Made by a program: the position numbers and the translations under genes
In this document: piece after piece, positions 309 through 24,155 of the stretch
Numbering within the stretch: the stretch's first letter is position 1
Layout: each line of letters opens with the position of its first letter
Notes under the pieces: model-generated
Seen by the model: the letters and a program-made list of their open reading frames with translations, nothing else
What the model was told of the DNA's origin: nothing
The model's database searches: none
NCBI GenBank assembly: GCA_009602725.1
Contig: WELB01000294.1
Span: forward strand, 111,781 to 136,196
Source: Spirogloea muscicola
Taxonomy: Eukaryota; Streptophyta; Zygnematophyceae; Spirogloeales; Spirogloeaceae
Direction: 5' to 3'
DNA: 24,416 nucleotides

Positions 309-385
309 AGAAGAGGAGCTCGCCCATATAAAAGAGGAGCTGGCAGAAGCCAGCCAAAAAGAATGCATAAAAACCAAAGAGCCAC
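309..385 (-). mobile_element. LINE 3' tail (hairpin module), minus strand
   Basis: On the minus strand this reads CATTCTTTTTGGCTGGC, loop TTCT, GCCAGC, then ATGGGCGAGC, which are the landmarks of the recurrent 3' tail. The stem GGCTGGC/GCCAGC is intact apart from its outer pair. No LINE coding sequence is attached, so this is a tail-only piece. Confidence 0.7.
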
Positions 386-439
386 AACAGGTGCCGGAAA
401 GAAGGGAAGTACACAGCTAGGCATCTAGACAACTAGACT

Positions 440-600
440 CAGCTAGCTTCTTGGACCTGCATCTCCTGTCTAGAGGTTACTGAACGTTCCCTAGCTGATG
501 TCTTAGTCCTAGTCGTTCGCACTCAGGCTCCCTCAGACTGTCCATTCTTTTGGGCTGGCCTTTCCCAGCCACCAGTCAATCTGGCCGCGCTTCCTCACAC
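440..600 (+). mobile_element. LINE C-terminus remnant plus 3' UTR, subfamily B
   Basis: The codons before the stop at about 481-483 read L-D-L-H-L-L-S-R-G-Y, the C-terminal signature of the LINE ORF in this window. The following 3' UTR (GTTCCCTAGCTGATGTCTTAG...) matches the UTRs at 1017-1165 and 19822-19945. It ends in the hairpin GGCTGG-CCTTTC-CCAGCC followed by ACCAGTCAATCTGGCCGCGC. The copy is 5'-truncated so severely that only about ten codons remain. Confidence 0.75.
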
Positions 601-611
601 GACGGAACCAC

Positions 612-750
612 GATGGGCGAGCACTTTCCTGAGCCTAGCATCTCCGACCTGCGGCTGGTTACTGAGTGATTCTCCTGTAGCTCTTTGGATTTTGTCCATT
701 CTTTTTTGGCTGGCTTCTGCCAGCCCCTCTCTTCTATGGGCGAGCTTTTT
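612..750 (+). mobile_element. LINE C-terminus remnant plus 3' UTR and tail
   Basis: It begins with the end of another tail (ATGGGCGAGCACTTTCCT), then S-I-S-D-L-R-L at 637-657. About nine bases (CTTAGCAGG in other copies) are missing before GGTTACTGA. A short UTR follows, then the hairpin GGCTGGC-TTCT-GCCAGCC at about 708-726 and ATGGGCGAGC. Tail, C-terminus, UTR and tail therefore sit end to end, the typical arrangement of this debris. Confidence 0.7.
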
Positions 751-848
751 CTCTTTCCACAGGAAGCTCAATACCCGCGGGCGAGCAACATCAGGTCAGA
801 GTAGCTCGAAGCTGGAAAAGATGCAGGCAGACGAGACCCGGAAGCATC

Positions 849-1165
849 GCTCAAGTCTTCCGAGTGCGGTTGGCCATCTCGATGCAGCGGTCCCTTGCCT
901 TCGCAGTTCACTTGCGCGCAGGCCGAGCTTTGGCGGCGGCCTCCGGCTTCCATCAGGGCGACGTCTTTCCGCCGGCTAGCTACTCAGACTTGCATCTCCT
1001 GACTAGAGGTTACTGATTCTTAATGGGCGAGCACTTCCTTCCACTGAGCGTTCCCTGGCTGATGTCTTAGTCCTAGTCCTTCGCACTCCGGCTCCTTCAG
1101 ACCTTGTCCATTCCTTTGGGCTGGCCTTTCCCAGCCACCAGTCAATCTGGCCGCGCTTTCTGCAG
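849..1165 (+). mobile_element. LINE C-terminal fragment (55 codons) with subfamily B 3' UTR
   Basis: An uninterrupted plus-strand frame, 849-1016, carries A-Q-V-F-R-V-R-L-A, then Q-R-S-L-A-F and L-R-A-G-R-A-L-A-A-A-S, then G-D-V-F-P-P-A-S, ending S-D-L-H-L-L-T-R-G-Y-stop. This is the C-terminal extension that follows the endonuclease domain in the longer copies at 18826-19250 and 1951-2611. A tail end (ATGGGCGAGCACTTCCTTCC) interrupts just after the stop at 1023-1042; the subfamily B UTR and hairpin then run to about 1165. It is 5'-truncated and non-autonomous. Sequence 751-848 shows nothing I can assign. Confidence 0.8.
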
Positions 1166-1261
1166 AAGCAGCAACGAAAGGCCAGCCCAAAGGACACACT
1201 TTCTTCCTACACAGGAAGCGCGGCTCAAAGGATGAGGTATTTCGCACTGCCGTCCACCGGC

Positions 1262-1472
1262 TCCTGGGGCCCCTATTCTCAATGGGCGAACACTTTCTTC
1301 CTGGGGCTACCGCCTCCATGTCTCCAGGCGTGCGTCAGTGTGTATGCGGCGAGCGAGGGGCCGAGTCTGGGGAGCTGGCCGCTCATGTTCTGCGCTGCGC
1401 CCACGGCGGCGAGCGGACAGCGGCCCACGACCGCCTCCGCGATGCGATGCACGGCATCCAGTTGAAAGTGCT
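1262..1472 (+). mobile_element. LINE zinc-knuckle fragment, plus strand
   Basis: After a tail remnant (CCCCTATTCTCAATGGGCGAA, about 1270-1291) the plus frame reads G-V-R-Q-C-V-C-G, then H-V-L-R-C, then A-H-D-R-L-R-D-A-M-H-G. This is a C-x-C ... H-x3-C knuckle followed by the H-x-x-L-R-D-A block that in R2-like LINEs lies between the reverse transcriptase and the restriction-like endonuclease. The fragment breaks at about 1470, where an antisense tail begins. The same region is intact at 24238-24416 and is also present in the minus-strand copy at 20755-22256. Confidence 0.75.
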
Positions 1473-1745
1473 CGCCCGTTGAGGATGGGGGGCTGGAAAA
1501 GCCAGCCCAAAAAAGAATAAACAGAGTACGAGAAGAGAGAAGCGCGGCCGGATTGACTGGTGGCTGGGAAAGGCCAGCCCAAAGGAATGGACAAGGTCTG
1601 AGGGAGCCTGAGTGCGAAGGACTAGGATTAAGACATCAGCCAGGGAGAAGGCGCGCGGGGCGCATGAAATGAAATGGAGGCCAATTCAAGCCGACACATT
1701 GTTCAGGCAGAGTCTAGGGCAAACTAAACAGGGCTACATACTACG
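1473..1745 (-). mobile_element. Three stacked antisense LINE tails (types A, B and F)
   Basis: On the minus strand: 1473-1545 is a type A tail (TCGTACTCTGTTTATTC, hairpin GGGCTGG-CTTTT-CCAGCCC, ATCCTCAACGGGCGAGCAC). 1546-1643 is a type B tail with part of its UTR (TTGGGCTGGCCTTTCCCAGCC, ACCAGTCAATC). 1645-1745 is type F (TGCCTGAACAATGTGTCGGC, then GGCTTGAATTGGCC, then CATGCGCCCCGCGCGCC). No LINE protein-coding sequence lies between them. Confidence 0.7.
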
Positions 1746-1779
1746 GAAACTGAAACCAAGGTGCCTAGGGAGACATCTG

Positions 1780-1928: not shown

Positions 1929-1950
1929 CCTATAGTATAGCAGGGAATGC

Positions 1951-2611
1951 TCAGTAACCTCTAGTCAGAAGATGCAAGTCCGAGTTGCTAGCTGGCGGAA
2001 AGACGTCGCCCTGACGGAAGCCGGAGGCCGCCGCCAAAGCTCGGCCTGCGCGCAAGTGAACCAAGAAGGCAAGGGACCGCTGCATCGAGACGGCCAAACG
2101 CATACGGAAAACTTGAGCGAGGGACCCGGCGACGTTGAAGCCGGGCTGCTCGCCCTGCTGCCCGAGGCGGCGGGCCGCTGCACGCCGCGCCAGGCTGTGG
2201 AGCAACTCAAGCCATTTCGAGCCAAAGGCTCCGTGCACGTCGACTGCCAGTGGAACGAACTCGTCTCCCACCGGGTGATCCGAGTACTTCCGTTCCTTTT
2301 CGCCCGCCGCTTGGCCGACTGCGTAGCCGGCCTCCTCCGACGAGCGTTTTGCGCTTGCTGGAAACAAAGCTGTCAGTTGTGACGACGTCTGCGATGAGCC
2401 GAGGCCCCCCGCCGAGCGCTGGCGACGAGGTCGGCGCGCCGGGTGTGGATGCGGCCATCCGCCCCAGCGGTCGGAGGCATGTCGCTGGTGTTCTCGAGCG
2501 CCACCGCATAACCGGCCTCGACAAAGATGCCCAAACATGGCATCCCGCAGCAGGTCGTGCGTTCCTGTCCGCTCCCCGCCCCATGCGCACCTCAGCATGT
2601 GAGGCTGGCTT
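1951..2611 (-). mobile_element. LINE 3' half: knuckle, endonuclease region and C-terminus, minus strand
   Basis: Read on the minus strand from about 2611: H-M-L-R-C (second half of the zinc knuckle), then T-H-D-L-L-R-D-A-M, then in a shifted frame the endonuclease core I-A-D-V-V-T-T-D (about 2371-2400). After a second shift come K-E-R-K-Y-S-D-H-P, F-V-P-L-A-V-D-V-H-G-A-F-G, a long R/A-rich segment, L-R-A-G-R-A-L-A-A-A-S and S-D-L-H-L-L-T-R-G-Y-stop at 1951. The order V-D-V ... K-x-x-K-Y ... F-x-P ... G matches the PD-(D/E)XK-type restriction-like endonuclease of R2-like elements. At least two frameshifts make it inactive. It is one of the longer RLE copies in the window. Confidence 0.8.
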
Positions 2612-2952
2612 GGAGGCTGGCTTCTCCGTGGCAGCGGAGCACTCCTTTTGTCCATTCTTTTTTGGCTGGCTTCTGCCAGCCCCTCTCTTCTATGGGCGAG
2701 CTTTTCCAGCATCATGCCGAGCCAGGAAAAGGCCGACGGTCTCCACGCCTCTGGCTCTGTCCAGGGGACCCACTTCCAGGACCCTAGCCTCTCTGATTTG
2801 CGGTTGCTTAGCAGGGGTTACTGAGTAATTTGTAGCTGCTTTCTTTCTTTGTGTGCTTTGGTTTCTTAGCGCTTCCACGCCCGGCGTGTAGACCTGGTGG
2901 CCACCCCACAGGCCGGCGGGCCACGTCTTCTCCTGGACGTTGTTTAGTCTGC
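2612..2952 (+). mobile_element. LINE fragment with 62-bp tail insertion, C-terminus and 3' UTR
   Basis: Plus strand: E-A-G-F-S-V-A-A-E-H-S, interrupted at 2646, continuing from about 2708 with I-M-P, then a deletion-shortened stretch to S-L-S-D-L-R-L-L-S-R-G-Y-stop (stop about 2821-2823). The 3' UTR (GTAATTTGTAGCTGCTTTC..., TTTCTTAGCGCTTCC) matches those at 19251-19295 and 22967-23003. The flanks of the interruption match the uninterrupted copy at 24345-24416, which makes the filled and empty sites directly comparable. Confidence 0.8.
2646..2707 (+). mobile_element. Tail-only insertion inside a LINE copy (62 bp)
   Basis: Inserted between GGAGCACTCC and AGCATCATGCC; the empty copy at 24374-24392 reads AGAGCACTCCGGAATCATGCC. 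The insert starts TTTTGTCCATTC, contains the stem GGCTGGC-TTCT-GCCAGCC and ends ATGGGCGAGCTTTTCC. A possible 2-3 base target duplication (TCC/CC) is all that is visible. Its length, not divisible by three, breaks the host LINE frame. Confidence 0.75.
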
Positions 2953-3035: not shown

Positions 3036-3424
3036 TGGACGTGGTGACCACCGATGCATACAAACCGCTCACACCCAGCCCAATGTGCCACCAAGGCTGC
3101 GTATGCGGTCGCCTGCGCCGGGCTGAAGAGTGCCGACCATCCGCGGGAAGACGAGTTCATTCCGTTGGCAATTGACACCCATGGGGCGCTCGGCGCTCGG
3201 TGGCTCGAGCTGCTCACCCAGCTCGCCCGCCACACCATCGCTCGTCGCTTCCATGGGGAGCCGGTCGACTTTCCTGCAGCCGGGTCGCCGGCGCAAGTGT
3301 ATCGAATGCGCCTGGCCGTCTCGCTGCAGAGGTCTATGGCCCGGGCGTTGCATCTTCGTGCCGGCAGAGCCCTCGCTGCTGCCTCTGCTGCAAGAATCAA
3401 TCAAAGAAAGAAAAAAATGGGTCC
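3036..3424 (+). mobile_element. LINE endonuclease/C-terminal fragment with A-rich end
   Basis: It opens L-L-D-V-V-T-T-D-A (frame of 3036), then shifts frame and reads H-P-R-E-D-E-F-I-P-L-A-I-D-T-H-G-A-L-G-A, L-E-L-L-T-Q-L-A-R, M-R-L-A-V-S-L-Q-R-S-M-A-R-A and L-R-A-G-R-A-L-A-A-A-S. About 18 bases present in the sister copy (E-L-K-Y before A-D-H-P) are missing. It stops before the S-D-L signature and is followed by AAAGAAAGAAAAAAA at 3404-3418, as if the transcript ended early. It is about 95% identical by eye to 18845-19182 in the same orientation. It is the last repeat before the MON2 gene. Confidence 0.8.
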
Positions 3425-3800
3425 AGATCCGCCCAGAGGCGGGTTGCCTTAACCGTGTGATGGAAAGCCCGGAGGCTGTTCCCGTCCTTATCGAGGGAGA
3501 TGCTAACCTTCTCTCGGCTCAACGAACACGGCCTGCCATGCTGGCCACCGTGTTCATGATCCTCCGGCTGTGGCCGGCGTGGTGACCTGCTGGGATAAAC
3601 ATTGAGCTGTGGCCCTGGGAGATGTTTGCATGCCTGCTGCGGCCGGGGCGCCCGCCGGGGCGGACGCCCCCGCGCTCGCTCGCGCTGCGCCATTGCCTCC
3701 TCCGCGCGCGAGCCCTGACGCAGGCCCGCTACTGAAGCACGGTGCCTCCCCGCACCGATGAGCGGCCTGCTCGGCAGGCCTGCGAGTGCAGCCAGGCTGG
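3425..3800 (+). promoter_or_regulatory. Upstream region of MON2 with GC-rich segment
   Basis: No LINE landmark and no convincing coding sequence is present here. Between about 3637 and 3722 the sequence is extremely GC-rich with a self-complementary stretch (GGGGCG ... CGCCCCC, 3647-3675). Its position directly 5' of the first MON2 exon suggests promoter and 5' UTR. I see no TATA box. An in-frame ATG for the downstream part of exon 1 lies at 3758. The assignment rests on position and composition only. Confidence 0.4.
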
Positions 3801-5769
3801 ATGGCTGCCTTCACTGCTGTTCTGGAAGCGGACAGCGCGCTCTGTCCTCGGAGTCTAGGAGGCGCTTCCCCGCCGTCAAAGATGCTGCAGAGCACGGCAT
3901 CATCAAGGCGCGCTCAATTCTCCTCCCCTGCTCCTCGTCTGGCTGCTCCAGAGGGCCCTCTATTCACACTGGAGCAGCCGCCTCCATGCAGCCATGATTG
4001 TGTAGCTTTGCACTCCTCCAAGCCGTGCTACACCAAATCAGCAACCCCAGCGTCAAAGCACAAAAGCACGCTTCATACGCTTCCTGTATCCAATAGTGAC
4101 AGCTGCGAGCTAGACGACTTGCAAACTTGAGACATGACTCATTGTGGTTCTGCCCCTCCCTGATTGCCACTCTCCTTCCTGGCTTCAGACCGATGACCTG
4201 CGATAGTGTTGATCACCTGACGGTTGTTGTATCGGCGCCTTCTTTACAGCTTCGGTCGTTGCCTGATGCTGAAGCCATTGCCAACAGTGAGGATGTGCTT
4301 CGCATCTTCACTATGGCGTGTGAGGTCAAACAGGTCAAGCTCAGTGTCATTGGGCTCTCTTGCCTTCAGAAGCTCATCGCACACGATGCTGTAGCGCCTA
4401 CCGCCCTTCCTCAAATTCTCACCACCCTGAAAGAGGTACAGAAATCTGAAAGCAGCTGCCACTTGCGAGACTTTTGGCGAGATCCGAGTAGCAAGGGCTC
4501 AGCATTATTCACTGGCAATATCACTGCAAATTAGGCAGCCTACTGTGACACAGGCTGTATACTGCAGAGCTGGTTCTCACAATGCTTCAGTTGTGGTATT
4601 CCAGTACATTAAACTGATTGGTTTCACCTTCGATGCTTCTGACTGCAGCAATCGGAGGTCTTTGACGAACTTTCAACGTTGACACCACCTTTGAGGTGGC
4701 TTGGGCAGCATACAGAGGCACAAGATGAAAGTGTGCAACTCAAGGTGCTGCAGACTGTACTCACATTGCTCCAGTCGAGGCTTCATCCCGTGGAGGAGGT
4801 GCAGTACTTGATACTTATGATACAGCCAGCAGCTTATGTGTCGATATGCAGTCTTTCTGCTGATTACAATCCTGTGATCTGCCATACCGAAGCAAGCTGG
4901 TCATTTGGAAGTGGCTTACGTGTCCGAGATGCAGGTCACTGGCATGGCAGATTGAAGCGAGTCTTTGGCAAGCTGCAGGACAATATGGCCACTGCTCTTG
5001 GGATATGCCTGCGTTTGATAGGAAATGGTCGCCAACCAGACAGCGTACACAGGTGTGAGCAGGACAGTGCTTGTTCACCACCTTTAATTGAACATCATGC
5101 ATTACTGAATTACTCCAATTGTACATACTCGTCCACTTCGAGATGATATAGAGAGGTCATGGGACAGGGAGAATTTCTTCTGGTCTTCTGGCAATAAACT
5201 ATCCATTGTAATTGTTGTGCTTGTTGCAGCACAGCTGCAGCTACTCTGAGGCAAGCAGTTGCTCTTATCTTCGACCGAGTTGTAGAGGCGGAGGCTCTTC
5301 CAGTGACCCCTTGGCAGTCAGGTCGAAGATTTTCACGTACTACCTCCGTATCTGGTGATGTCAGCCGTAGCATCATTTACAAAGGGTTTGTAATTCTGCC
5401 CCTTGCATGTCCTATACTTCTATGCCCTGCCAACATCTGCTCACCCTTGGACAGCAGCTTTCAAAGATCAGCTACTGTTCATTAACAGCTTCCCTCATGC
5501 AGGCAGAGCCAGCAGCTTCGTGATTCCAGCTACAGTCGGCCACGAGCTAATATTGCAGTTAGAGCAGGCCAGACAGTTGTCCACCAAGCTCGAAGTATTC
5601 CGCTGCACATTGCTTGGCTGATTCCAATATTGGTGGCCATGGGTTGCTTGACAGTGTACTAAGAGGAGGCCTTGCTGCATCTACTGGTGGTCGAGACAAT
5701 CTGTCCCAGGCTGCAAAATTGGGGCTGAAACTCCTTGAGGACCTTCATGCACTAGCAGCAGGACAACCT
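3801..5769 (+). other. MON2: MON2 exons 1-6 (DCB-type N-terminus)
   Basis: Exons: 3801-3907, 4250-4435, 4709-4798, 4979-5052, 5230-5389, about 5596-5769. Exon 1 starts M-A-A-F-T-A-V-L-E-A-D in one frame and continues R-A-L-S-S-E-S-R-R-R-F-P-A-V-K-D in another; one base is missing near 3834. It ends AAG before a GC donor. Exon 6 (K-L-G-L-K-L-L-E-D-L-H-A-L-A-A-G) has an uncertain start. The acceptors at 5558, 5567 and 5576 look better but lead into a stop if read in phase. They become usable only if a 17-base micro-exon (5503-5519, after CATGCAG) supplies the phase. Confidence 0.82.
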
Positions 5770-8700
5770 GTAAGCTGCCAAGGCTGTTGTAGCAACTGAT
5801 GCTGCCTTTCAATTCAAGTTGGTGATCTCAATGGTCTGAAGACTCTCTTCCTTCGCGGATGATGTGCAGGCCGTGTGGCTGCACGTACCCTCTCTGCCAC
5901 GTGCTTTTGCCATGGACATGATAGAGTAAGTTCTGCAAGCATTATGAACCCCATGGTTTTGGCTCCTGATACAGTCAGCTTCGAGTTCATGCTTTGCTTA
6001 GCAGGTAGATATGTGTCCATGGATGCATTTCCTTCCAACTAGTGAGCTGCATAAGAGTGATGGCTGTGCTAAAGTGGACATTGAGACTACTGGGTTTACT
6101 TGTATTTATGTCTTGCAGGTATGTTTTGTCATACTATGAGCAAATCTTTAGGCAGCTTCAGGAATTTGAGCAGGTTGAGCATCTACATGTAACAGCTTGG
6201 TTGCCTTAGAAGATTGATTGCCTTCCTTGCATATGTTCCGCTTCAGAGACAGCTTCTGCAGAAGTGCTTGTCTGTTGTCTATCACAGGCACTGAGAACCA
6301 AAATAAGCCCCTTGCTCATGACATCTCTGCGAGCTACTGGCGAGGTAATTTTCGTAAGTCTTGTATTATTCTGAGTGCATTGAGCTGTGGCACAATGTTG
6401 TAGTGAGGCACCATCTAAGGGGCTTTAGTTGAGCATTCTGTGAGGGCAAAAGCTCCTATAAGGGGCACTTTGACATTCCTCTTTATGACTACTCCTAAAA
6501 GATTGAAGGAGAAGGTGGTGAACCACCCTTTCGGCGGCTTGTTTTGAGAGCTGTGGCAACTGTGACACGTCTGTATGCCTCAAGCTTCACAACCGAATGC
6601 GAAGTAGGAATACTCTATGCTGGCTGCCTGTACTTGCTTGTATCCTCTTTGACCCAAGAAAATAGCATCTGTTAGATGTGTACCTTGCAAATGTCATCAG
6701 TCGGATGGGCACAATGGGATCTTGCATATTGAGCAGATTGTACTGTCGGATGATCCTATCCAACACATCATGTTGCAGGTGTTCATGAGCATGCTTATCA
6801 AGAGCATGGAGCTAGATCTTCCTCTTTGGCATCGCATCATGGTCCTAGAAGTATTAAGGGTAATTGCTCTGACACCAACTTACTGAGACCTGCACAGACT
6901 TGCATGAGTTTGTGACGTGCATGTGTTGACAGGTATCCTCAATTGTGCAAGAGCTCTGCATTGGCTTCCTTCCGTCTGTTGCTCACATTAAGTTGCTTCC
7001 TGATCATTCAAATATTAGCAGGGATTTTGTGTTGAGGCGAGGATCCTGCCCTACATCTTTCAAATTTTTGATATGTGAGTGTGATCATTTGACTGATCTT
7101 GTCTGATTGTCTTATTGGACAACAGCGCTTCAGGTAGCAATGACATTATAGACCTCACATGGTAGACGAATTCCGCTGGATGCATGTCAAAAGTGGCATC
7201 TACCAGGCAAAGTCTCATCTGGGTGAGCTTTTCAGGTCGTTGTACTTGATGGATGCAGGCAACCCTCAAATACCAACATAGTTGCTGATATGATTGCAGC
7301 CTTGGCCAAGGTAGTGGATACTGTACAGGTATGTATTCTGCATCAAATGTATGCCTCCACAAAGACTTTCAACCCCATGCTCAGTGAGCTATCAGTAGTG
7401 TCATGCTCTTGTAGCACAGCACACATAGCAGCTCCCAAGTTGCCATGGATTCATGCTAAAGTTGCCATGGATTTATGCTACAGGTGCCAGAAGCAAGCGA
7501 GGAGAGTCTTGCAGCAGTCGCTGGCATGTTCAGTAGTAAAGCCAAAGGTATGGCTGCTTCAGGTTGTTGTGCTCATTTGATGACAATGTTTCTGTTGCTT
7601 GCTGCCTCTTAGCACGTGTTGTAGAACTCAAATGTATATCACATTTGAGCTATGCAGTCCTCAAGCAGAGTTGTCAACCTTTTCTAACAGGAGTAGAGTG
7701 GACAATGGACTACGATGGCAGTGGCCAGGCTGTTGTGGTGGCAAGTGAGGCGCATGCCATCACACTTGCAGTGGAGGGACTTCTAGGGGTAGTTTTTACA
7801 GTGGCTACATTAACAGATGAGGCCATGGATGAGGGAAAGGTAATCTCTCTTGAAGTTTGAATTTAGAGGAAATCGTTCATTGGATTGCTCTTCTTGTCGT
7901 ATAAAGATTTACAGCTTGACAATACATCTGTGGCATGATTGGTGTAGCTGCAGTCGCCAAAAGTGCCTGGTGATACAGCACCCTTGAGCACAAAAGAGGG
8001 AGGACTGGTCTATATGTGCAGCAAAATGGTGGATTCAGTCTGGCATATGCTTTTAGACGCTCTTTCCCTGATGTTGGCAAGGTGGGCGACTCCATTCACA
8101 AGACAAAGCTCCTGACTAAGACTTTCAGTTGTGGTCCATTGCAAAATAGGGTATCGCTGTCATCTTATAAGCCCCTGGCAAGTCCGTGTGTCTCGTATTG
8201 AGGAACTTCGTATTGAGGAACTCAGCTATTGTGACTCCTGGATCAGGCGGGCTGGAGGAGCAGAACACTCCAGCTTATTGTCTTCACTTTGACAAGGACC
8301 CCCGAGCCCTGTCATTTGTCCTGAGTTGATGATGACCACTATGCCTTCTGCTTGCTCGTCTGCCATGAAGCAAGCAGGTCACAAGGTGAAGCAGTCGTGC
8401 TTGAGATACTCAAGGGTTACCAAGCATTTACACAGGTGAACAATCAATGCCGTATCTCCTGGGCCTATGGGGTCCAGTAATAATGCCTGGCTCTCATCCT
8501 CCTGTATATGGGCTGTTACTATGACGTCTACTTGCTCATGTTGGTTAACTGCTGGTGATGAAAGGCCTGTGGCGTTCTACAAGCTACGGATGCAAGGGAT
8601 GCTTTCTTGGCATCGCTCTGCCGCTTTACGCTCGTTCAACAGTATGAAGCAGAAAAGAGCAGCAGGTACTGTCCCTGGCTGCATATATTACTCTCCATCT

Positions 8701-14700: not shown

Positions 14701-16462
14701 TAGGAGGTGAGTCTGATTGCCGGTCATCTCATCAGGTTACAGGCATGTGCATGACAGGTGCATGGCTCTGAGGCGCGACTATCCTGATGCACAGCTGTGG
14801 CACACAGCTGTTGTGGCTTTCAACTCCATACTGGACAACATCTTGATGCAGGATGAGCAGCGTAGCTTGAAGGCTGTGCAGCAACAAGTTGATCATGCAG
14901 ATCAGGATAGTGCTGTGATACTCAAAGCTTCAGTTGAGCGGCCCAGAATGTGGAAGGAACTCGTCAATGTGTACGAGAAATTCCTACTTGGAGCCTGTGG
15001 GCGGGCTTTGACTGTGTCCTCTGGACAAGCTCTACCGGAGGATGTCCAGAATGCTGATGAAGCCCTGGAGATTGCAGTGCTCGATGGCCTCTGTGATCGT
15101 GTGCTGACATCGTGTGCTGATGCATCAGATGAGGTCAGCTGCCGCTTGTCAAGCCTTTGGAGAGGTTGAGGCACTCCACCAGGCAGATTCCTGAGCTGCC
15201 GTGTGTTGATCTTCTTTCCTTTGCTCCTGACAGACAAGGCCGGTTTGCCGCTTTCCAGGTGCGACGTAGATTAGTCACGGTGATTGACCGGTGTGCAGCT
15301 CGCACATCGGTCCTCCCGATCAGCAGCATCTCACTGTTGCCAGCACATTGTGGACGATTCTCGCTTGCGTGCTTGCATAGGCTTTTTGTCCTTAGCGGGT
15401 GAGTGTTGCAGAACGTTGATGGTTGTTGTCTTGCTGCTTATTCATGCTTACAGATCTTGCACCTCAGAGAAGGGTAGATGTTGCAGCGATTTGTTGATGA
15501 CGAGTACTTCGCTGTGCTCTTGCTCGAATTTTGGCAACGTAGGGAATCTAGCAGGCAGAATTGGGTGTATAGCTCCAGTACTTGCATCATGAACGGCAAG
15601 TATTGGTCACATGTGCATATCTGCAGACTGATCTGAATGTCAATATCTGATGCCATCGAGATGCTTTCACTGCTATTGGGGCGCAAGGCATGGACAAGAA
15701 GCGGATGGGGAGACATCATCTGTTGTGCAAGTTGGCAGGATAGCGATCAATGTGCTAGTAGGGCGCTGCAACTCCATATTGGAGCGCTTTGCTGCTGACG
15801 AGGCCCAGACAGGTACAATGCCTCCTCAATCTAAGAGCTGCCGGAGATTGTCCTCCAATGTAGATGCTGGTTCTGATGGAGGCTGGCCTGCAGATCAGGG
15901 GAGAAATAGCTGCTGCTATTGCAGCCCACATCCGACACGATTGCTCAATTGGCTGCCTGCTGCTGCGTCGCAGGAGTGACGCCTCTGCCTCAGATGCGGT
16001 TGGACGAAGTGACGACCATGCTGCAGGAGCTGGCCCGCTTGCAGCTGCACCACCTGGTGGCTGCCGCGGTTGACATACCCATTACTCACGTCGAAGACGA
16101 GGGGGAGGCTGAGAGCCCTGGTATTGTACGGGAAGTGCAGCAGCAGGCAGCCGCTTCCAGACTGCGGCTGGTGGATAAGGCAGGGAGGCAGCTGGGGTGG
16201 CGGCGAGCCCACCTCATGCTGCTCTACATGCCCCTCTGCGAGCTGGTGCTTAGCCCGTAAGTAGCCAATCCCCTTCTGACCTGGGCTGCAGTCGCACTAT
16301 GGTGGAAGCTGAAAGGGAGGGCACAGGGTGGCGGGGGGATGCAGGGAGAAGAGGACCCGGGAGCTGCTGCGCGTGCTGCTCAGGCTGGTGGGCCGAGAGC
16401 TGGGCCTGGCGGGGGGAGAGGCGGGGGTTCGCACCTACGGCCTTGAGATGAGTGGCAGCTGA
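3801..16462 (+). CDS. MON2: MON2 homolog (Arf-GEF-related trans-Golgi/endosome scaffold), 42-exon gene
   Basis: Joined exons encode about 1,780 residues (about 1,796 with one optional micro-exon) colinear with plant MON2 proteins of roughly 1,630-1,650 residues. MON2 resembles the non-catalytic arms of large Arf-GEFs (DCB, HUS, HDS/Mon2_C) and has no Sec7 domain; none is visible here. It acts on Golgi and endosome membranes with Dopey-type partners. Anchors in order: V-K-L-S-V-I-G-L-S-C-L-Q-K-L (exon 2), F-R-R-L-V-L-R-A-V-A (exon 10), V-A-S-E-A-H-A-I-T-L-A-V-E-G-L-L-G-V (exon 15), L-E-T-L-A-A-L-D-R-T-I-H (exon 21), R-N-T-A-Q-K-Q-W-D-E-T-L (exon 33), C-G-R-F-S-L-A-C-L (exon 39) and a final R-E-L-L-R-V-L-L-R-L-V. 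Exon 1 lacks one base: the frame from ATG 3801 matches the family up to codon 11 and then must shift. The phases of all other exons fit, with exon 6 the weak point. No other decay is evident, so the gene is probably functional or carries a single sequence error. Confidence 0.93.
5870..7839 (+). other. MON2: MON2 exons 7-15 (HUS-like region)
   Basis: Exons: 5870-5925, 6119-6173, 6288-6344, 6502-6603, 6779-6859, 7022-7074, 7259-7328, 7484-7547, 7691-7839. All have GT donors and AG acceptors and fit in phase. Diagnostic stretches are L-S-Y-Y-E-Q-I-F-R-Q-L (8), L-L-M-T-S-L-R (9), G-E-P-P-F-R-R-L-V-L-R (10), L-P-L-W-H-R-I-M-V-L-E-V-L-R (11), G-F-C-V-E-A-R (12), N-T-N-I-V-A-D-M (13), E-S-L-A-A-V-A-G-M-F (14) and T-V-A-T-L-T-D-E-A (15). 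Confidence 0.9.
7437..7480 (+). repeat. 22-bp tandem duplication at an intron 3' end
   Basis: AAGTTGCCATGGATTCATGCT is followed by a copy with one C-to-T change. The second copy runs to four bases before the end of the intron, so the duplication lies next to the acceptor of MON2 exon 14 (starts 7484). Confidence 0.9.
8193..8222 (+). repeat. 15-bp tandem duplication in a MON2 intron
   Basis: TCGTATTGAGGAACT occurs twice in direct succession in the intron between exons 16 and 17. Confidence 0.9.
9518..9541 (+). repeat. TC dinucleotide microsatellite, 12 units
   Basis: An uninterrupted TC run in the intron before exon 22, whose acceptor lies about 25 bases downstream. It may serve as a long polypyrimidine tract and is likely to vary in length. 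Confidence 0.97.
9742..9778 (+). repeat. 21-bp period tandem duplication in a MON2 intron
   Basis: TAGGCCTCAGTACCAA is repeated 21 bases apart, with a partial third copy (AGGCCTCACATT) just upstream, in the intron before exon 23. Confidence 0.85.
11072..13892 (+). other. MON2: MON2 exons 26-36
   Basis: Exons: 11072-11124, 11370-11418, 11560-11618, 11742-11872, 12159-12253, 12416-12544, 12709-12794, 12965-13080, 13243-13355, 13501-13624, 13774-13892. Anchors: R-H-G-E-K-L (26), V-R-V-I-L-N-D (28), M-N-I-S-L-T-A-I (29), M-D-E-R-P-E (30), V-R-N-A-A-I-R-T-L-F-Q-S (31), G-G-K-A-V-H-M-L-V-H-H (32), E-G-S-K-E-V-A-L-A-A-V-N (34), R-Q-E-I-L-E-N-L-G (35). Exon 30 ends GAG before GCAAGC, a GC donor. Exon 34 most simply ends AAG before GCGAGC, although a GT donor nine bases upstream keeps the same phase. 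Confidence 0.88.
13098..13121 (+). repeat. 12-bp tandem duplication in a MON2 intron
   Basis: ATCAGGCTGCAC is repeated exactly in the intron after exon 33. Confidence 0.9.
14066..16462 (+). other. MON2: MON2 exons 37-42 (Mon2 C-terminal region)
   Basis: Exons: 14066-14574, 14758-15133, 15259-15398, about 15688-15812, 15974-16256, 16345-16462. Exon 37 contains L-W-P-T-L-L-K-Q-L-L-A-Y-L-P followed by a long low-complexity S/H/T/G linker. Exon 38 has R-R-D-Y-P-D-A-Q-L-W and C-G-R-A-L; exon 39 V-T-V-I-D-R-C-A-A-R-T-S. Exon 40's acceptor is weak (CGCAAG at 15687, or an alternative at 15660). Exon 41 has R-A-H-L-M-L-L-Y; its apparent stop at 16258 is removed by the donor GTAAGT at 16257. Exon 42 ends at TGA 16460-16462. 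I found no AATAAA or TGTAA in the next 350 bases. Confidence 0.88.
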
Positions 16463-16904: not shown

Positions 16905-17000
16905 GTATTTCCTGGTCCCTGAGGACCTGGTCCATTCTCTTTGGGCTGGCTCTCTCACAGCCCTCGCCTTCCCTGTTTCTTTTGGAAGAGCTCACTGTGG
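16905..17000 (+). mobile_element. LINE tail, type D
   Basis: CTGGTCCATTCTCTTTGGGC leads into GGGCTG-GCTCTCTCA-CAGCCC (six-pair stem) and then TCGCCTTCCC. The flanks differ from types A-C, but the CATTC-spacer-hairpin core is conserved. An imperfect internal repeat (GCACTTGCATAGC..GTG) sits just upstream at about 16823-16897. Confidence 0.6.
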
Positions 17001-18342: not shown

Positions 18343-18545
18343 AAGAAGTGGCACTCCCAATGGGGGCAAGGGCTGCGAAAAGCCAGCCCAGAAAGAATTG
18401 ATAAAGGTTCAGAGGGGCCTACAAGCGTGTAGCAGCTACAAAGGGGCCTGAAGATGCTATGTCAGAGAGCAGGCGCGCGGTACGCATGAAAATGAAGCGA
18501 GGCCAATTCAAGCCAATACATTGTTCAGGCAGAAAATGCAGAAAG
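18343..18545 (-). mobile_element. Antisense LINE tails, types C and F
   Basis: 18343-18470 on the minus strand is type C: GGGCTG-GCTTTTCG-CAGCCC, then CTTGCCCCCATTGGGAGTGC. 18472-18545 is type F (TGCCTGAACAATGTATTGGC, GGCTTGAATTGGCC). The same C-then-signature arrangement recurs at 22331-22484. Confidence 0.7.
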
Positions 18546-18626: not shown

Positions 18627-18812
18627 GCGCGCGGCCAGATTGACTGGTGGCTGGGAAAGGCCAGCCCAAAGAGATGGATAAGGTCTGAAGGAGCCGGAGT
18701 GCGAAGGACTAGGACTAAAACATCAGCCAGGGAACGCTCAGCAACCTCTAGTCAGTAGATGCAAGTCTGAGTAGCTAGTCGGCGGAAAGACGTCGCCCTG
18801 ACGGAAGCCGGA
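18627..18812 (-). mobile_element. LINE C-terminus with subfamily B UTR, minus strand
   Basis: On the minus strand: F-R-Q-G-D-V-F-P-P-T-S-Y-S-D-L-H-L-L-T and a near-complete end (R-G-C in place of R-G-Y), then the subfamily B UTR and the hairpin GGCTGG-CCTTTC-CCAGCC. It is 5'-truncated at the junction with the plus-strand copy at 18826, so the two fragments are head to head. Confidence 0.75.
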
Positions 18813-18825: not shown

Positions 18826-19360
18826 TTACCACTGACGCATACGACCGCTTACACCCAGCCCAATGTGCCACCAAGGTTGGGTATGCGGTCGCCTGCGCCG
18901 CTCGGGCTAAAGAGCTCAAGTACGCCGACCATCCGCGGGAAGACGAGTTCTTCCCGTTGGCCATTGACACCCATGGGGCGCTGGGCGCTCGGTGGCTCGA
19001 GCTGCTCACCCAGCTTGCCCGCCACACCATCGCCCGTCGCTTCCATGGGGAGCCGGTCGACTTTCCTGCAGCCGGGTCGCTGGCGCAAGTGTATCGTATG
19101 CGCCTGGCCGTCTCGCTGCAGAGGTCTATGGCCCGGGCGCTGCACCTTCGTGCCGGCAGAGCCCTCGCTGCTGCCTCTGGCTCTGGCTAGGGGACCCACT
19201 TCCATGCCTAGCATCTCTGATCTGCGGCTGCTTAGCAGGGGTTACTGAGTGATTCGTAGCTGCTTTGTTTCTTTGTGTTCTTCTTTTCTTAGCGCTTCTC
19301 GTGCTCTATTCATTCTTTGTGGGCTGGCTTCTCCAGCCCCTATCCTCAATGGGCGACCAC
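18826..19360 (+). mobile_element. LINE endonuclease/C-terminal fragment with full 3' UTR and tail
   Basis: Plus strand: A-K-E-L-K-Y-A-D-H-P-R-E-D-E-F-F-P-L-A-I, D-T-H-G-A-L-G-A, L-E-L-L-T-Q-L-A-R, R-F-H-G-E-P-V-D-F, Q-V-Y-R-M-R-L-A-V-S-L-Q, L-R-A-G-R-A-L-A-A-A-S, then after a small frame change S-I-S-D-L-R-L-L-S-R-G-Y-stop (stop 19246-19248). The K-x-x-K-Y motif missing from the sister copy at 3036 is kept here. The UTR runs to the hairpin GGGCTGG-CTTCT-CCAGCCC (about 19320-19338) and ATGGGCGACCACTTTCTTC. A 26-base duplication (GCATACGACCGCTTAC) marks its 5' junction at 18813-18855. Confidence 0.85.
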
Positions 19361-19554: not shown

Positions 19555-19735
19555 GTGTTGCCTGAACAATGTGTTGGCTTGAATTGGCCTCCATCTCAAT
19601 CCATGCGCCCGCGCGCCTTCTCCTTGTGTAGGGTGCTAGAGGAGGGTAAGGCCCCCTTCTCGTACTCTGTTCATTCTTATTTGGGCTGGCTTTTCCAGCC
19701 CCTATTCTCAATGGGCGAGCACTTACTTCTTTCTC
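19555..19735 (+). mobile_element. LINE tails, types F and A, in series
   Basis: Type F (CCTGAACAATGTGTTGGC, GGCTTGAATTGGCC, CATGCGCCCGCGCGCC) is followed by type A (TCGTACTCTGTTCATTC, hairpin GGGCTGG-CTTTT-CCAGCCC, CTATTCTCAATGGGCGAGCA). This type A copy is the cleanest in the window. Confidence 0.8.
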
Positions 19736-19745: not shown

Positions 19746-19970
19746 TGGCGGCGGCCTCCGGCGGCGATGTCTTTCCGCCGGCTAGCTACTCAGACTTGCA
19801 TCTCCTGACTAGAGGTTACTGAGCGTTCCCTGGCTGATGTCTTAGTCCTAGTCCTTCGCACTCCGGCTCCTTCAGACCTTGTCCATTCCTTTGGGCTGGC
19901 CTTTCCCAGCCACCAGTCAATCTGGCCGCGCTTCTTTTATCCTCAATGGGCGAGCACTTCTTCTGTTTTC
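19746..19970 (+). mobile_element. LINE C-terminus with complete subfamily B UTR
   Basis: The frame 19746-19821 keeps A-A-A-S-G, G-D-V-F-P-P-A-S-Y and S-D-L-H-L-L-T-R-G-Y-stop. The UTR (GCGTTCCCTGGCTGATGTC...) reaches the hairpin GGCTGG-CCTTTC-CCAGCC at about 19891-19908, then ACCAGTCAATCTGGCCGCGC. After it comes an end resembling type A (ATCCTCAATGGGCGAGCAC), suggesting the two tail types are modular or recombined. Confidence 0.75.
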
Positions 19971-19984: not shown

Positions 19985-20165
19985 TGGCTTTGGACATTGT
20001 GCATTCTTTTTGAGTGGCTTTGCCAGCTCCCTCTTCCGTACTATGTAGCCCTGTTTAGTTTGCCCTAGATTCTGCCTGAACAATGTGTCGGCTTGAATTG
20101 GCCTCCATTTCATTTCATGCGCCCCGCGCGCCTTCTCTCTATGGGCGAGCTCTTCTTCTACCTCC
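19985..20165 (+). mobile_element. Further plus-strand LINE tails
   Basis: A variant hairpin (TGGC-TTT-GCCA within GAGTGGCTTTGCCAGCTC, about 20011-20028) is followed by a type F unit (20070-20140) ending ATGGGCGAGCTCTTCTTC. Its upstream context (TATGTAGCCCTGTTTAGTTT) also precedes the antisense type F copy at 1645-1745, so type F extends at least 40 bases 5' of the hairpin. Confidence 0.65.
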
Positions 20166-20206: not shown

Positions 20207-20515
20207 TCAGAAGAAGAAAGTGCTCGCCCATTGAGAATAAGGGGCTGGAAAAGCCAGCCCAAAGAAAATGAACAGAGTACGAGAAGGGGGCCAGGGGAAG
20301 GGGAAGCGCTGAGAAAAAGAAGAAAGAAGAAAGCGCGGCCAGATTGACGGGTGGCTGGGAAAGGCTTGTCTCGCCCCTATCAATGAAGAGGAGCTCGCCC
20401 ATAGAAAAGAGGAGCTGGCTGGGAAAGGCCAGCCCAAAGGAATGGACAAGGAAGGAAGTGCTCGCCCATTGAGGATAGGGGCTGAAAAGCCAGCCCAAAC
20501 AATAAACTAGCACAC
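20207..20515 (-). mobile_element. Four stacked antisense LINE tails
   Basis: On the minus strand: type A at about 20213-20300, type B at about 20330-20362 (hairpin half lost), type A/B at about 20385-20455, type A at about 20458-20500. Each has ATGGGCGAGC and most have GGGCTGG ... CCAGCCC. Four tail units within 300 bases, with no LINE coding sequence, is the densest cluster in the window. Confidence 0.75.
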
Positions 20516-20600: not shown

Positions 20601-20754
20601 GAAAAGGAAGAATGCGGCTGCTGATACTGCAGAATCCAAAAGAAGAATTCCGTGTGTATTAGAAACTAATGTAGGCCAAATCGCCAAGTACAAGGCAAGC
20701 ACATCTATTGATCTACATAACCTACAGCAGATTGACCCGCTCAATAACCATGGG

Positions 20755-22256
20755 TCAAAATAGGTCTCTAATCGATGCATGAATACTAGATGCCAGAAAC
20801 GGAACCCTTCTGCCACCAACTAGAGCTCGCCCAGCTTTCTGGTGCAAGGCAATAGCCTGAGCACGCTGCAAACAGGCCGAAACTTGTCGTCGCAAGAGCG
20901 ACAGATGCAGCTGGCTAGCCCATCTCAGCCGGAAACACATCTGCACGTCGAGTGTAGCCTAGGTTGGCAATTTTTCGAAGGAGAGTGTGGAAACGAGGAC
21001 CCAGACAGCCAAGAATGTCGATTGCCGCTGGCAGGAGCTGATCGCATTGGGGGTAATCGGAGTAGTGCCGCAAGCAATTTCCTTTGTTCTGCACCGCCCA
21101 CTGCATGCCCAGCGATGTGTGTCGATGCTGGGCCTTCAGATGCCTCCGTAATAACAACGTCGACCAGGGCCCGTGGTCCTCCACCAGGTTGCACGCCCAC
21201 AATGTCAAGTGTGCGGCTATGATGACGTCCCTGGACGTCCGTGGTGATAGGCATGATATTGTTGACTTCCACAACCGCACGGTAGTGGGCGTCGCGCATC
21301 AAGCCCGCCAGGGCATCGCGAAGGAGGTTGTGAATGCCCACCACTTCTGGTCCAGTGGGCCATCTCAGCATGTGAGTGGCGAGCACAGCACCCTCTGCAC
21401 GGAAGCCGCACTCGCACTGGCGCACCCCAATGAGGCAGTTAGGTGGGAGGCCGAGGAAGAGTTGAAGCGATGTCCGAAAGGCCTCGGAGCTGATGCTGAA
21501 GGCGTTGGCGATGGGGGGAGAGGTGATCCAGTCAGTGGCACCAGGTGTGGCCACAGAAGTAAGTCCTGCCAAGCTCCTTGGATTGTTCTGAATCTCTGGC
21601 AGCCTCCTCAACCTTCTGCTGCATTCGTCTTCCGCTGCCGTAACCAGTCTGGGTTGTGCCCCTCTATCAGGAGCTTGGGCGAGGGCGGAGAATGGCGTGA
21701 GTAGGGGTTGGAGAGAGGGGAAAGAGCTGATGGCTGAGTCGCGGATGATCCCCAGATCAGCTTGGAAGGGGAAGGAGCCTTCCTCCACATTGCGTACAGG
21801 ATCGTGAAGGCAAGGGAAGCGCATGGGGAGCAGGGAGGCGGTCTGGTGCCAGCAGCCCAGGAAGGCTGCTTGCGCCGTCTGCTCCAACGACCGGCAGCCA
21901 AGGCCGCCCATGCGAGTAGGGAGGGAGGCCTGGAGGGAGGCTGAAGCTGAGGGGAAAGACGAAGAATAAAGTAGGGATGCCAGGGACTGCTGAAGGGAGT
22001 CATCATATTCCTTGTAGAAGAAAGCGGCTGCTGATATGAAAGAATCGGCTGTGAAATGCCAGCCAGATGCATACAGGTGTTCATGACGGAGCCAAAGGCT
22101 AGGCAGACAGGGCGCCCTCAATACCCCCTTGTAGAGCTCCGCCACCATGCCCAATGGGGCGACTGTCCGTTGCAGATAGCAGCCCGTTGGCCGATGCAGC
22201 GGGTGAGGATGGCAAACTCCAGCTGCGTGTCCCCAAGGAGGGGAAGGGAAGGGAGG
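20755..22256 (-). mobile_element. LINE ORF, C-terminal half: thumb, zinc knuckle and restriction-like endonuclease (decayed)
   Basis: It contains the longest open frame in the window (minus, 22385 to 20925, 486 codons). In order: a thumb-region block (G-D-T-Q-L-E-F-A-I-L-T, in a neighbouring frame near 22240), a long linker (M-G-G-L-G-C-R-S-L), the knuckle (Q-C-E-C-G ... H-M-L-R with the expected last Cys changed to Trp), H-N-L-L-R-D-A-L, then T-L-D, 14 residues, D-V-V-I-T-E. The last fits the R/K-P-D-X12-14-D/E spacing of R2-type restriction-like endonucleases with a degenerate first triplet. The frame shifts near 20930 and continues A-L-H-Q-K-A-G-R-A-L-V to about 20755. The C-terminus is diverged from the short copies, so this is another subfamily. 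It is the downstream part of the reverse transcriptase at 23095-23962. Confidence 0.8.
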
Positions 22257-22261
22257 GGGGC

Positions 22262-22331
22262 GAGGTGTTTTGAGCTGCTCACCCAGCTCGCCTGCCACAC
22301 CATCGCCCGTCGCTTCCATGGGAAGCCGGTA
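22262..22331 (+). mobile_element. Small plus-strand LINE endonuclease fragment
   Basis: Encodes F-E-L-L-T-Q-L-A-C-H-T-I-A-R-R-F-H-G-K-P-V, a 70-base piece of the region that is complete at 19000-19065. It ends exactly where an antisense type C tail begins. Confidence 0.7.
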
Positions 22332-22780
22332 AGAAGAAGAAGTGGCACTCCCAATGGGGGCAAGGGCTGCGAAAACCCAGCCCAAAAAAAATTCACAAAG
22401 GTTCAGAGGGGCCTAAGAGCGGTGAGCAGCTACAAAGGGGCCTGAGGATGCAATGGTAAAACAGGGGGAGGATGGATCACTCAATAAGTACGAGTGAGGA
22501 GCCTCAGATCCGACAGACTAGCTGCCGGGAAGCTATCACCCTGACGAAACCCAGAGCCCGCAGCGAGAGCACGGCCAGCTCGCAGATGCAGAGCGTGGGC
22601 CATGGACCGCTGCAGGGATACAGAGAGGCGCATCCGATATACCTGAGCCCACGAGCCCGCGGCGTTGAAGTCGGCTGGCTCGCCGCGTCTGCGGGACACA
22701 GCCCGCCGCGCAAGCCTAGCCAATAGGTCAAGCCACTGGGACCCAAGAGCCCCGTGCACGTCCACCGCCAAGGTAGACTG
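22332..22780 (-). mobile_element. LINE C-terminal fragment with type C tail, minus strand
   Basis: The minus frame 22771-22481 reads A-V-D-V-H-G-A-L-G-S-Q-W-L-D-L-L, M-R-L-S-V-S-L-Q-R-S, L-R-A-G-R-A-L-A-A-G-S-G-F-R-Q-G-D and [10 protein letters not shown], then a stop. Its 3' UTR and type C tail (GGGCTG-GGTTTTCG-CAGCCC) extend to 22332. This 5'-truncated copy meets a plus-strand copy head to head at 22781-22785, inside the larger minus-strand LINE. Confidence 0.8.
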
Positions 22781-22784
22781 CAGC

Positions 22785-23090
22785 CGGGTCGCTGGCGCAA
22801 GTGTATCGCATGCGCCTGGCCGTCTCGCTGCAGAGGTCTATGGCCCGGGCCATGCACCTTCGTGCCGGCAGAGCCCTCGCTGCTCTGTCTCTGGCTCTGG
22901 CCAGAGGACCCACTTCAACGAGCCTAGCATCTCCGACCTGCGGCTGCTTAGCAGAGGTTACTGAGTGATTCGTAGCTGCTTTGTTTCTGTTTCTTAGCGC
23001 TTCCCCTGGCCCCCTTTTCGTACTCTGTTCATTCATTTTCGGGCTGGTTTTTCCAGCCCCTATTCTAAATGGGCGAGCACTTTCTTCTTG
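22785..23090 (+). mobile_element. LINE C-terminal fragment with 3' UTR and type A tail
   Basis: Plus strand: A-A-G-S-L-A-Q-V-Y-R-M-R-L-A-V-S-L-Q, L-R-A-G-R-A-L-A, then with a small frame change S-I-S-D-L-R-L-L-S-R-G-Y-stop (22962-22964). The 3' UTR is uninterrupted: GTGATTCGTAGCTGCTTTG, TTTCTTAGCGCTTCCCCTGG, TCGTACTCTGTTCATTC, hairpin GGGCTGG-TTTTT-CCAGCCC, ATGGGCGAGCACTTTCTTC. It shows that the free-standing type A modules are the end of this UTR. Confidence 0.85.
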
Positions 23091-23094
23091 TTTT

Positions 23095-23962
23095 TGAAGG
23101 CGTTCCCGCAAGTCCACCGCCCGGTGAGCTTGGTGTACCGAAGGGGACCTTGAAAATGGCCACCCATTGGCAGGGGTCTGACAGCCGTGGGGGAGCTGAA
23201 GGTTGGCAGGGAGACCGCGCGGGGACCAGGCCACGCTCTTAGACGGGCAAACCCGCAGGCCCATCAGGTCCAATTCGCGAACGAGCAAGGGGTAAGCCGC
23301 CATGACTTCAGCTGGAGGTCCAATGATGTGTGTGTCATCCGCGTAGGAAGCGAAGAGGAGGTCTGGGTGTTGGCTCTGAGTACGCCCAATAGCCCGGCAA
23401 TGTGCCAACGCAAACAGGATTGGGCTAAGGGGATCCCCCTGGCGTGTGCCAGAAGATGACCACAGCGTCTTCCACGACTCTCCGGCTTGCCACAGCAGCC
23501 GCCCTGGGCGGCCATAGGCCATGAGGAAAAAGGGTATAAGGGGAGGGAGGTAATCGCGTCAGCTCCTCCATGATGACGCTGCGCTCCACTGTGTTAAAGG
23601 CGTTACTGATATCCAGCCCAAGGACCATCATTGAAGGGTCCACGTCGAGAGCGGCACGGATGCCGTGGACGAGGGCCTCCGCCCCGCAGGACATGCCAGC
23701 ACCAAATTGGTGGGGTGATAGATGGCTGGTCAGCTGGGGTTTCAGCTCGCTGCACACGGCCTTTGATACCAGCCGCATGACAACCTCCGTCATCACAATG
23801 GGTCTCACACCGCCTGTTGGCTTCGCAAGGGCTAGCAGGTAGCTGGAGTTTAAGGCGTCAGCAATGCGTGGTGGAATGGCAGCCCTGGCAATGTGCCGGC
23901 AGGTCGAGAGGAACAGGGAGAAGCTCCTCTCATCCCCATCAAGGAATAGGTCGTGTAGGTGC
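23095..23962 (-). mobile_element. LINE reverse transcriptase domain (frameshifted), minus strand
   Basis: Two minus frames together give a non-LTR reverse transcriptase. From 23962: A-L-A-K-P-T-G-G-V-R-P-I (fingers), H-Q-F-G-A-G, motif A L-G-L-D-I-S-N-A-F-N-T-V (about 23595-23630). After a frameshift near 23530 come motif B G-T-R-Q-G-D-P-L-S-P (about 23425-23455) and motif C F-A-S-Y-A-D-D-T-H-I (about 23325-23355). The catalytic aspartates of motifs A and C are present, and N-A-F and Y-A-D-D are typical of LINEs. The N-terminus is cut by a tail insertion at 23963, and the 3' side by the nested insertions at 22262-23090, beyond which the same LINE continues at 22256. Confidence 0.9.
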
Positions 23963-24035
23963 TCAAAGAAGAAAGTGCTCGCCCATTGAGAATAGGGGCT
24001 GGAACAACCAGCCCGAAAAAGAATGAACAGAGCCA
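23963..24035 (-). mobile_element. Type A tail inserted at the 5' edge of the RT fragment
   Basis: On the minus strand: CTGTTCATTC, hairpin GGGCTGG-TTGTT-CCAGCCC, CTATTCTCAATGGGCGAGCA, CTTTCTTCTT, then directly the RT reading frame (E-H-L-H-D-L-F). The tail is in the same orientation as the LINE. Whether more of the LINE lies upstream cannot be seen. Confidence 0.75.
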
Positions 24036-24059
24036 TCCAGAAGGGCCTCCAGACACCAT

Positions 24060-24155
24060 CCGGGGGGCTTTGGTCCCTCAGGCTCCCTCAGACTTTGTCC
24101 ATTCTTTCGGGCTGGCCTTTCCCAGCCACCAGTCAATCTGGCCGCGCTTCCTCTC
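24060..24155 (+). mobile_element. LINE tail, type B
   Basis: CAGGCTCCCTCAGACTTTGT, then CATTCTTTCGGGCTGGCC, TTTCCCAGCC and ACCAGTCAATCTGGCCGCGC, matching 525-598 closely. Confidence 0.75.

Follow-up and report, generated by a model that had tools for sequence, protein, structure and literature searches.

Conserved stem-loops or RNA cores at the 3' end are known from long interspersed nuclear elements (LINEs) of the L2, R2 and plant L1 groups (PMC4176376, PMC10499050, PMC3747384). In R2Bm, a core of about 40 nt in the 3' untranslated region (UTR) wraps the N-terminal extension of the reverse transcriptase (RT) and the 3' end is guided to the active site, and a 43-nt tag from the 3' UTR is sufficient for target-primed reverse transcription (TPRT) (PMC10499050). 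In ZfL2, ORF2p binds the 3' stem-loop, the stem being recognised generally and the loop specifically (PMC4176376). Here we analysed a stretch of 24,416 nt from the zygnematophycean alga Spirogloea muscicola (contig WELB01000294.1, positions 111,781 to 136,196; hereafter the window), in which a short hairpin with a GGGCTGG/CCAGCCC stem recurs in the 3' UTRs of LINEs. The hairpin lies about 20-29 nt before the element end in at least four subfamilies (A to D) and in older ones. It is probably a conserved 3'-terminal element common to a large and dispersed LINE superfamily of R2-like type, bound by the elements' own protein for TPRT.

Among the described systems, R2 shares with these elements an R2-like protein, and the hairpin together with its tail (about 45-50 nt) would match the size of the 43-nt R2Bm tag (PMC10499050). 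However, R2 has a 248-nt UTR with the P1 and P2 structures, whereas here one small hairpin is located about 28 nt from the end of a UTR of roughly 110-180 nt. R2 is inserted at a site in 28S rDNA, whereas the copies seen here, rDNA itself not having been examined, are dispersed and lie nested within each other as well as within other DNA, and an Rfam scan of the window gave no match to an R2 family. UnaL2 and ZfL2 are similar in having a 3'-terminal stem-loop common to related LINEs, but they belong to the L2 clade, in which ORF2 carries an endonuclease before the RT, and their TGTAA-type 3' repeat is absent here. The covariance model of the UnaL2 3' element, which we take to be an Rfam family, had no match in the window at E <= 10. 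Dualen elements carry two endonucleases, and the RandI/Dualen LINEs of Chlamydomonas differ from the present ones, which have a single open reading frame (ORF), no Pfam match to an apurinic/apyrimidinic endonuclease (APE) and no partner among short interspersed elements (SINEs) in our sample. They are nevertheless green-algal LINEs as well, with 3' ends that are shared with SINEs, as in SINEX (PMC3747384). The plant L1 and SINE hairpin of Ohshima (2012/2013) is likewise a conserved 3'-end hairpin of related LINEs and SINEs, but it belongs to the L1 clade and combines a variable stem and compensatory changes with a conserved UCU loop (PMC3747384), whereas the present stem is near-invariant without covariation. 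In ZfL2 specificity resides in the loop (PMC4176376), while in the present copies the stem core hardly changes and the loop is variable.

The window was scanned for GGGCTGG and CCAGCCC separated by a loop of 3-12 nt, with zero to three mismatches allowed in the stem. Six sites were perfect, 19 were found at no more than one mismatch and 24 at no more than two, compared with means of 0, 0.4 and 2.2 (maxima 0, 2 and 6) in 20 dinucleotide shuffles of the window. At three mismatches, 40 sites stand against a shuffle mean of 20 and degenerate sites are therefore individually unsafe. The first-pass annotation, made from the letters of the window, had listed 19 hairpins, and these are exactly the set with at most one mismatch, each within 11 bases. 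Its count of more than 20 recurrences is reached only with degenerate sites such as 337, 17022, 17703 and one near 20012 that was spotted by eye. Across the 19 sites the loop is 4-10 nt long. The four flank types (A to D) that the first-pass annotation had told apart are real and represent subfamily-specific 3' tails. The 19 sites are as follows, the scan being the source unless another is given.

552..571, plus strand: type B hairpin (GGGCTGGCCTTTCCCAGCCA), then a ACCAGTCAATCTGGCCGCGC-type tail
707..726, plus strand: type D hairpin (TGGCTGGCTTCTGCCAGCCC), tail ..CTATGGGCGAGC
1118..1137, plus strand: type B hairpin, about 101 nt after the SDLHLLTRGY stop at 1016; by eye, an A-type tail is inserted between this stop and the hairpin
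1490..1508, minus strand: type A hairpin with a perfect stem
1561..1580, minus strand: type B hairpin
2663..2682, plus strand: type D hairpin
16943..16963, plus strand: hairpin of an older type with tail CTCGCC...TTTTGGAAGAGCTC, 136 nt after the C-terminus SDLRLLIRGL and its stop
18370..18389, minus strand: type C hairpin (GGGCTGGCTTTTCGCAGCCC; tail TTGCCCCCATTGGGAGTGCCAC)
18648..18667, minus strand: type B hairpin (strand assigned by eye from the reverse complement)
19321..19339, plus strand: type A hairpin, 72 nt after the SDLRLLSRGY stop at 19248
19683..19701, plus strand: type A hairpin
19893..19912, plus strand: type B hairpin, 70 nt after the SDLHLLTRGY stop at 19822
20242..20260, minus strand: type A hairpin (strand by eye)
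20412..20435, minus strand: hairpin with a B-like core and a D-like tail
20479..20496, minus strand: type A hairpin, loop one base shorter (strand by eye)
22364..22383, minus strand: type C hairpin, 97 nt after a LINE C-terminus
23041..23059, plus strand: type A hairpin, 76 nt after the SDLRLLSRGY stop at 22964
23996..24014, minus strand: type A hairpin of a short copy at the start of an RT fragment
24109..24128, plus strand: type B hairpin of a truncated copy with the candidate target duplication CTTTGGTC (scan and direct-repeat test)

The same hairpin is abundant throughout the genome sequence (153.1 Mb in 471 contigs were scanned), which also has 68 matches to the chlorophyll a/b-binding family (PF00504), as a photosynthetic eukaryote should. 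The perfect 7-bp stem occurs 9,234 times, compared with 2 for a reversed-pattern control, and GGCTG/CAGCC hairpins led by ATTC occur 16,408 times (8,166 + 8,242), compared with 9 (6 + 3). A search of viral contigs returned 33 pattern matches, none of which could be confirmed as a relative. As a check of context that is independent of LINEs, pieces of 500 nt were taken at 20 perfect stems chosen along contig 1 and scored for an A-D tail. The control, a harsh one, consisted of 500 windows drawn from the same LINE-rich loci (median 6). In 13 of the 20 pieces the tail score reached or exceeded the control's 99th percentile, 19 scored at least 11, and a loose regular expression found a lead-like motif in 18. 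One piece, L063, scored 5 in the orientation chosen by the script; its reverse strand resembles a LINE lead by eye. These figures also bear on the idea of a dyad motif that is spread by LINEs and that a host factor or the element's protein binds in double-stranded DNA. Such a motif would be an inverted repeat conserved as sequence, as is the case here, but the hairpin keeps a fixed orientation and a fixed spacing from the end at which reverse-transcribed copies terminate 3', and 19 of 20 sites chosen regardless of LINEs reach the LINE tail score of 11. We regard this explanation as barely credible.

Sequence preceding many of the hairpins (such as GACCTGCGGCTGCTTAGCAGGGGTTACTGA) codes for the LINE C-terminus SDL(R/H)LL(T/S)RGY and its stop, for which a rough count gives 19,669 candidates. 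Loci were chosen for LINE C-termini, with the window added, and 57 distinct stops remained from 69 matches after removal of locus L001 and of identical UTRs. A sense-oriented hairpin with its lead lies 49-164 nt downstream of 43 of these 57 stops, and a looser regular expression that ignores orientation finds a hairpin after 47. When copies are aligned on the hairpin, their similarity ends sharply at +28 in type A (28 copies), +22 in B (30), +29 in C (23) and +20 in D (16), with information dropping from 1.3-1.8 to 0.15-0.34 bits at these change points; in type D a weaker conservation persists to about +28. Of the 121 copies considered for this alignment 24 were left untyped, and loci L001, L002, L003, L006 and L014, which lie inside the window or longer loci, were kept out of the typing, covariation, truncation, upstream-cluster and duplication counts. 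Direct repeats of at least 8 bp surround 13 of 111 testable truncated copies, compared with a mean of 3.3 and a maximum of 10 in 200 re-pairings, although by eye 6 of the 13 are LINE-tail or CTT repeats and not clear target duplications. Seven target duplications are clean by eye; their starts lie 25-34 nt beyond the core, and for five the distance is 27-28 nt. The sharp end of the copies and the target duplications together indicate that the hairpin is a 3'-terminal feature of these insertions, very short ones included. In the sampled loci it is thus placed at a fixed short distance from the LINE 3' end in several subfamilies, and the random placement that would have spoken against the first-pass annotation was not seen.

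A position close to the end would also suit a hairpin that acts in forming the 3' end of the LINE RNA or in stabilising it, through host processing as in histone mRNA, and not in recognition by the RT. A stem of 6-7 bp ahead of the RNA end fits this explanation, and so does the lack of any poly(A) or simple-repeat tail at the copy ends, CTT-rich ends excepted. Histone hairpins have ACCA after the stem, and ACCA directly follows the stem in type B. However, the RNA end of histone hairpins lies about 5 nt beyond the stem while the element end lies 20-29 nt past it here, and no Rfam histone hairpin matches the window at E <= 10. We therefore consider this role quite improbable.

In L046 and other copies the truncation falls at the hairpin or slightly upstream of it, the shortest copies consisting of the hairpin and its tail, and by eye the ultra-short copy at L046:241-290 contains little beyond these two parts. 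A hot spot of 5' truncation at the hairpin was considered but could not be demonstrated in this sample: short copies are common, but the bins do not make the hairpin stand out, and old copies confound the count. At L026:6104-6138, L008:493-530 and L024:5727-5806, truncated 3' ends stand by eye directly behind the 3' end of another copy in the same orientation. Re-initiation or template jumping could be the source of such tandem ends.

A single uninterrupted ORF of 1501 aa at L032:3728-8233 was used to characterise the LINE. It matches Pfam RVT_1 (E 1.1e-14) and, in a Pfam scan to E = 1, no APE family. Two zinc-finger-like CX2CX11-12HX3C motifs were found by regular expression near the N-terminus, at aa 335 and 458, where Pfam gives only Zn_SUZ12 (0.029, below its cut-off). 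After the RT follows a knuckle, CX1CX12HX3C, at aa 1271. In LINEs with a restriction-like endonuclease (RLE) the CCHC knuckle is described as CX2-3CX7-8HX4C, together with a PD-(D/E)XK-like nuclease motif (PMC5678591). In the present family R-x2-D-x14-D is invariant in eight aligned rows and the P of the PD motif is not kept. A search of the endonuclease region against PDB sequences returned only an unrelated chain (E 2). When a profile of three RTs was compared with solved structures, R2 proteins came first (3.3e-07, 4.4e-07 and 1.4e-04), followed by an RNA-directed DNA polymerase (0.053) and L1 ORF2 (about 0.1). An RT nearest to R2 among solved structures and the RLE-like motifs make an RLE-type, R2-like LINE likely, judged from its sequence. 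The RLE-type superfamily proposed in the first-pass annotation is likely to this extent, while the knuckle spacing and the missing P deviate from the description in PMC5678591. Among 150 scored genome matches of the type C subfamily (the window's own included), 28 are identical over 96 aa, and recent movement of this subfamily is therefore indicated. LINE coding fragments in the window are the following.

1951..2817, minus strand: LINE ORF fragment ending in ...RAGRALAAASGFRQGDVFPPASNSDLHLLTRGY and a stop (ORF list); no hairpin was found within 260 nt after this stop
22481..22837, minus strand: C-terminal LINE ORF fragment of the type C subfamily (ORF list)
23425..24087, minus strand: first part of a LINE RT (Pfam RVT_1, E 3e-08)
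22728..23558, minus strand: second part of a LINE RT with GTRQGDP..YADD (Pfam RVT_1, E 2.8e-07)
20925..22412, minus strand: part of an older LINE subfamily that covers the linker, the knuckle and the RLE-like motifs; in the knuckle, W stands in place of the final C

Conservation of the hairpin was measured on 204 profile matches. The arms could not be located in 13 of these, and the others yielded 186 copies, of which 157 are distinct. Arm positions were set by the best fit to the consensus and are accordingly biased towards it. Over the 157 copies the information content is 1.47-1.85 bits in the columns of the core stem (pairs 2-6), compared with 0.12-0.99 bits in 23 tail columns, and the core is thus kept while the flanks diverge, as had been proposed. 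The stem is conserved as sequence. There are 53 versions of the loop, 5-6 nt long in 145 of the 157 copies. The loop is not free, however, and the contrast between stem and loop is a matter of degree.

Several observations weigh against a hairpin recognised at the 3' end of an R2-like LINE, and they are set together here. Of the 57 stops, 14 have no sense-oriented hairpin, in several cases by eye through nested insertion or a decayed stem. No Rfam family reaches its gathering score over the window hairpins, and three weak microRNA (miRNA) models (E <= 10, all below gathering score) overlap one of them at 1105-1199 on the minus strand. The best of these is mir-2574 (E 0.1), and by eye the match is a chance-like foldback between the type B hairpin and a nearby reverse GGCCAGCCC. 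A single-sequence structure model of the window's endonuclease-region fragment is uninformative, at a predicted local distance difference test score (pLDDT) of 33. No SINE family that borrows the hairpin was found, as no upstream cluster among 153 copies lacks LINE C-termini: all six clusters of at least two copies include them, and of the 61 singletons 16 do. The first loop base is fixed at 1.59 bits and six loops account for 93 of the 157 copies. An excess of compensatory substitutions, which the first-pass annotation had suggested looking for, did not emerge. In the core, 0 of 785 cells hold a two-sided standard pair; 720 are wild type, 63 have one-sided changes (17 of these still standard pairs) and 2 have two-sided changes, neither giving a standard pair. 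Pairs 1 and 7 mostly break, with G-A in B, T-C in D and G-A or G-G in C, and show four two-sided standard pairs in 314 cells. Since the core is near-invariant, the covariation test has low power and its null result neither disproves nor proves the hairpin. Segments of 60 nt fold no better than shuffles in B and C (z -0.8 and -1.1); the centroid structure of B lacks the hairpin, and in C the fold of lowest energy is something other than the simple hairpin.

Alternatively, the protein could read the 3' end (for example GGGCUGGC and the tail) by its primary sequence as a single strand, the inverted repeat being incidental or an aid to presentation. The core is conserved as sequence without compensatory change, the B and C segments fold no better than shuffles, and position 7 of the 5' arm (G, 1.75 bits) is fixed like the first loop base although its pairing partner carries only 0.68 bits. 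Nevertheless, both complementary arms of the core are about equally conserved, and it is judged unlikely, without a computation, that chance would set five complementary positions side by side on the two sides of a loop that mostly measures 5-6 nt. For the 60-nt segments of A and D, folding is significantly stronger than in shuffled sequence (z -3.9 and -4.6). A protein that reads a single strand is therefore unlikely in our view.

A larger conserved structure, in which the TGTCCATTC lead pairs with an ATGGGC tail around the hairpin, appears even less plausible and would come as a considerable surprise. RNAfold shows such an outer helix in A and D, and the duplex of own lead with own tail reaches -6.9 (A) and -8.6 (D), compared with -3.2 and -4.5 with shuffled tails. 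However, the helix is lacking in B (-4.3, compared with -5.0 for shuffled tails) and C (-4.6, compared with -4.1), and the B lead pairs more strongly with A tails (-12.0) than A leads do, which indicates that lead and tail are not co-adapted. A shared outer helix, convincing in the single folds of A and D, was accordingly dropped after the cross-type test. A second B-type hairpin, CCAG/CTGG, was also dropped, as it is broken by some B variants (CCAGTCAATTCGG, CCAGTCCATTCGG).

The reading that we favour as probable, a 3'-terminal hairpin bound by the element's own protein, can be phrased as a mechanism. By precedent, the protein would bind the hairpin in its RNA and thereby place the last 28 nt or so in the RT active site, and TPRT would then start exactly at the 3' end. 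As the stem sequence is kept more than the loop, we infer that the RT recognises the hairpin by its stem or the 5' GGGCUGGC side of it, and it probably tolerates many loops. In R2 this binding is the task of NTE-1, an RNA-binding helix that immediately precedes the RT.

A further group of 3' ends, type F, is found at window positions 2979, 16592, 19576 and 20090 on the plus strand, with minus-strand copies near 1680 and 18500. Its commonest form is GGCTTGAATTGGCCTCCCTTTCAATTCATGCGC, and by eye it shares the C-terminal motif (SDLFVLTRGY) although its 3' end is different and its hairpin is not the same. The separate 3' end ascribed to type F earlier is thus real, whereas the GGCT/GGCC stem proposed for it pairs over only 4 bp and its change at 16591 is one-sided. 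In the commonest form TGAATTG and CAATTCA pair over 7 bp, a pairing that is broken by eye in several of 15 copies.

Other features of the window lie apart from the hairpins. A full-length model match to the minor spliceosomal RNA U6atac (85.5 bits, E 1.3e-19) is located at 3410-3529 on the minus strand. Green algae had been reported to be without U12 splicing (PMC2846911), and minor introns and their small nuclear RNAs were later found in some of them (PMC10639083). Two 135-bp copies with 96% matches stand head-to-tail at 42-306. The LINE-poor middle of the window, about 4100-16250 on the plus strand, contains a gene-like run of short open frames, and five pieces scanned from it had no Pfam match at E 0.01.

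To our knowledge, few RLE-type LINEs beyond R2 have a defined 3' RNA element. The consulted parts of the open-licence PMC literature, Repbase not having been searched, hold no description of this hairpin. The family is new and very abundant, while the device is the known 3' stem-loop of stringent LINEs with an unusual pattern of conservation, namely a near-invariant stem and a more variable loop. This pattern offers a testable contrast to UnaL2/ZfL2 and to plant L1. A compact hairpin with a tail of about 28 nt, which a recently active family carries in its thousands of copies, is a ready substrate for studying template choice by R2-like proteins, which matters for gene insertion tools based on R2. 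A more doubtful, tentative possibility is that the fixed GGCUG/CAGCC stem is a recognition code shared within one alga by many diverged R2-like lineages that are not site-specific, in which the stem is read and the loop is largely free, the reverse of the ZfL2 rule. If this were true, the lineages could compete for, or cross-mobilise, each other's RNA, and this would help to explain the more than 16,000 copies and their nesting.

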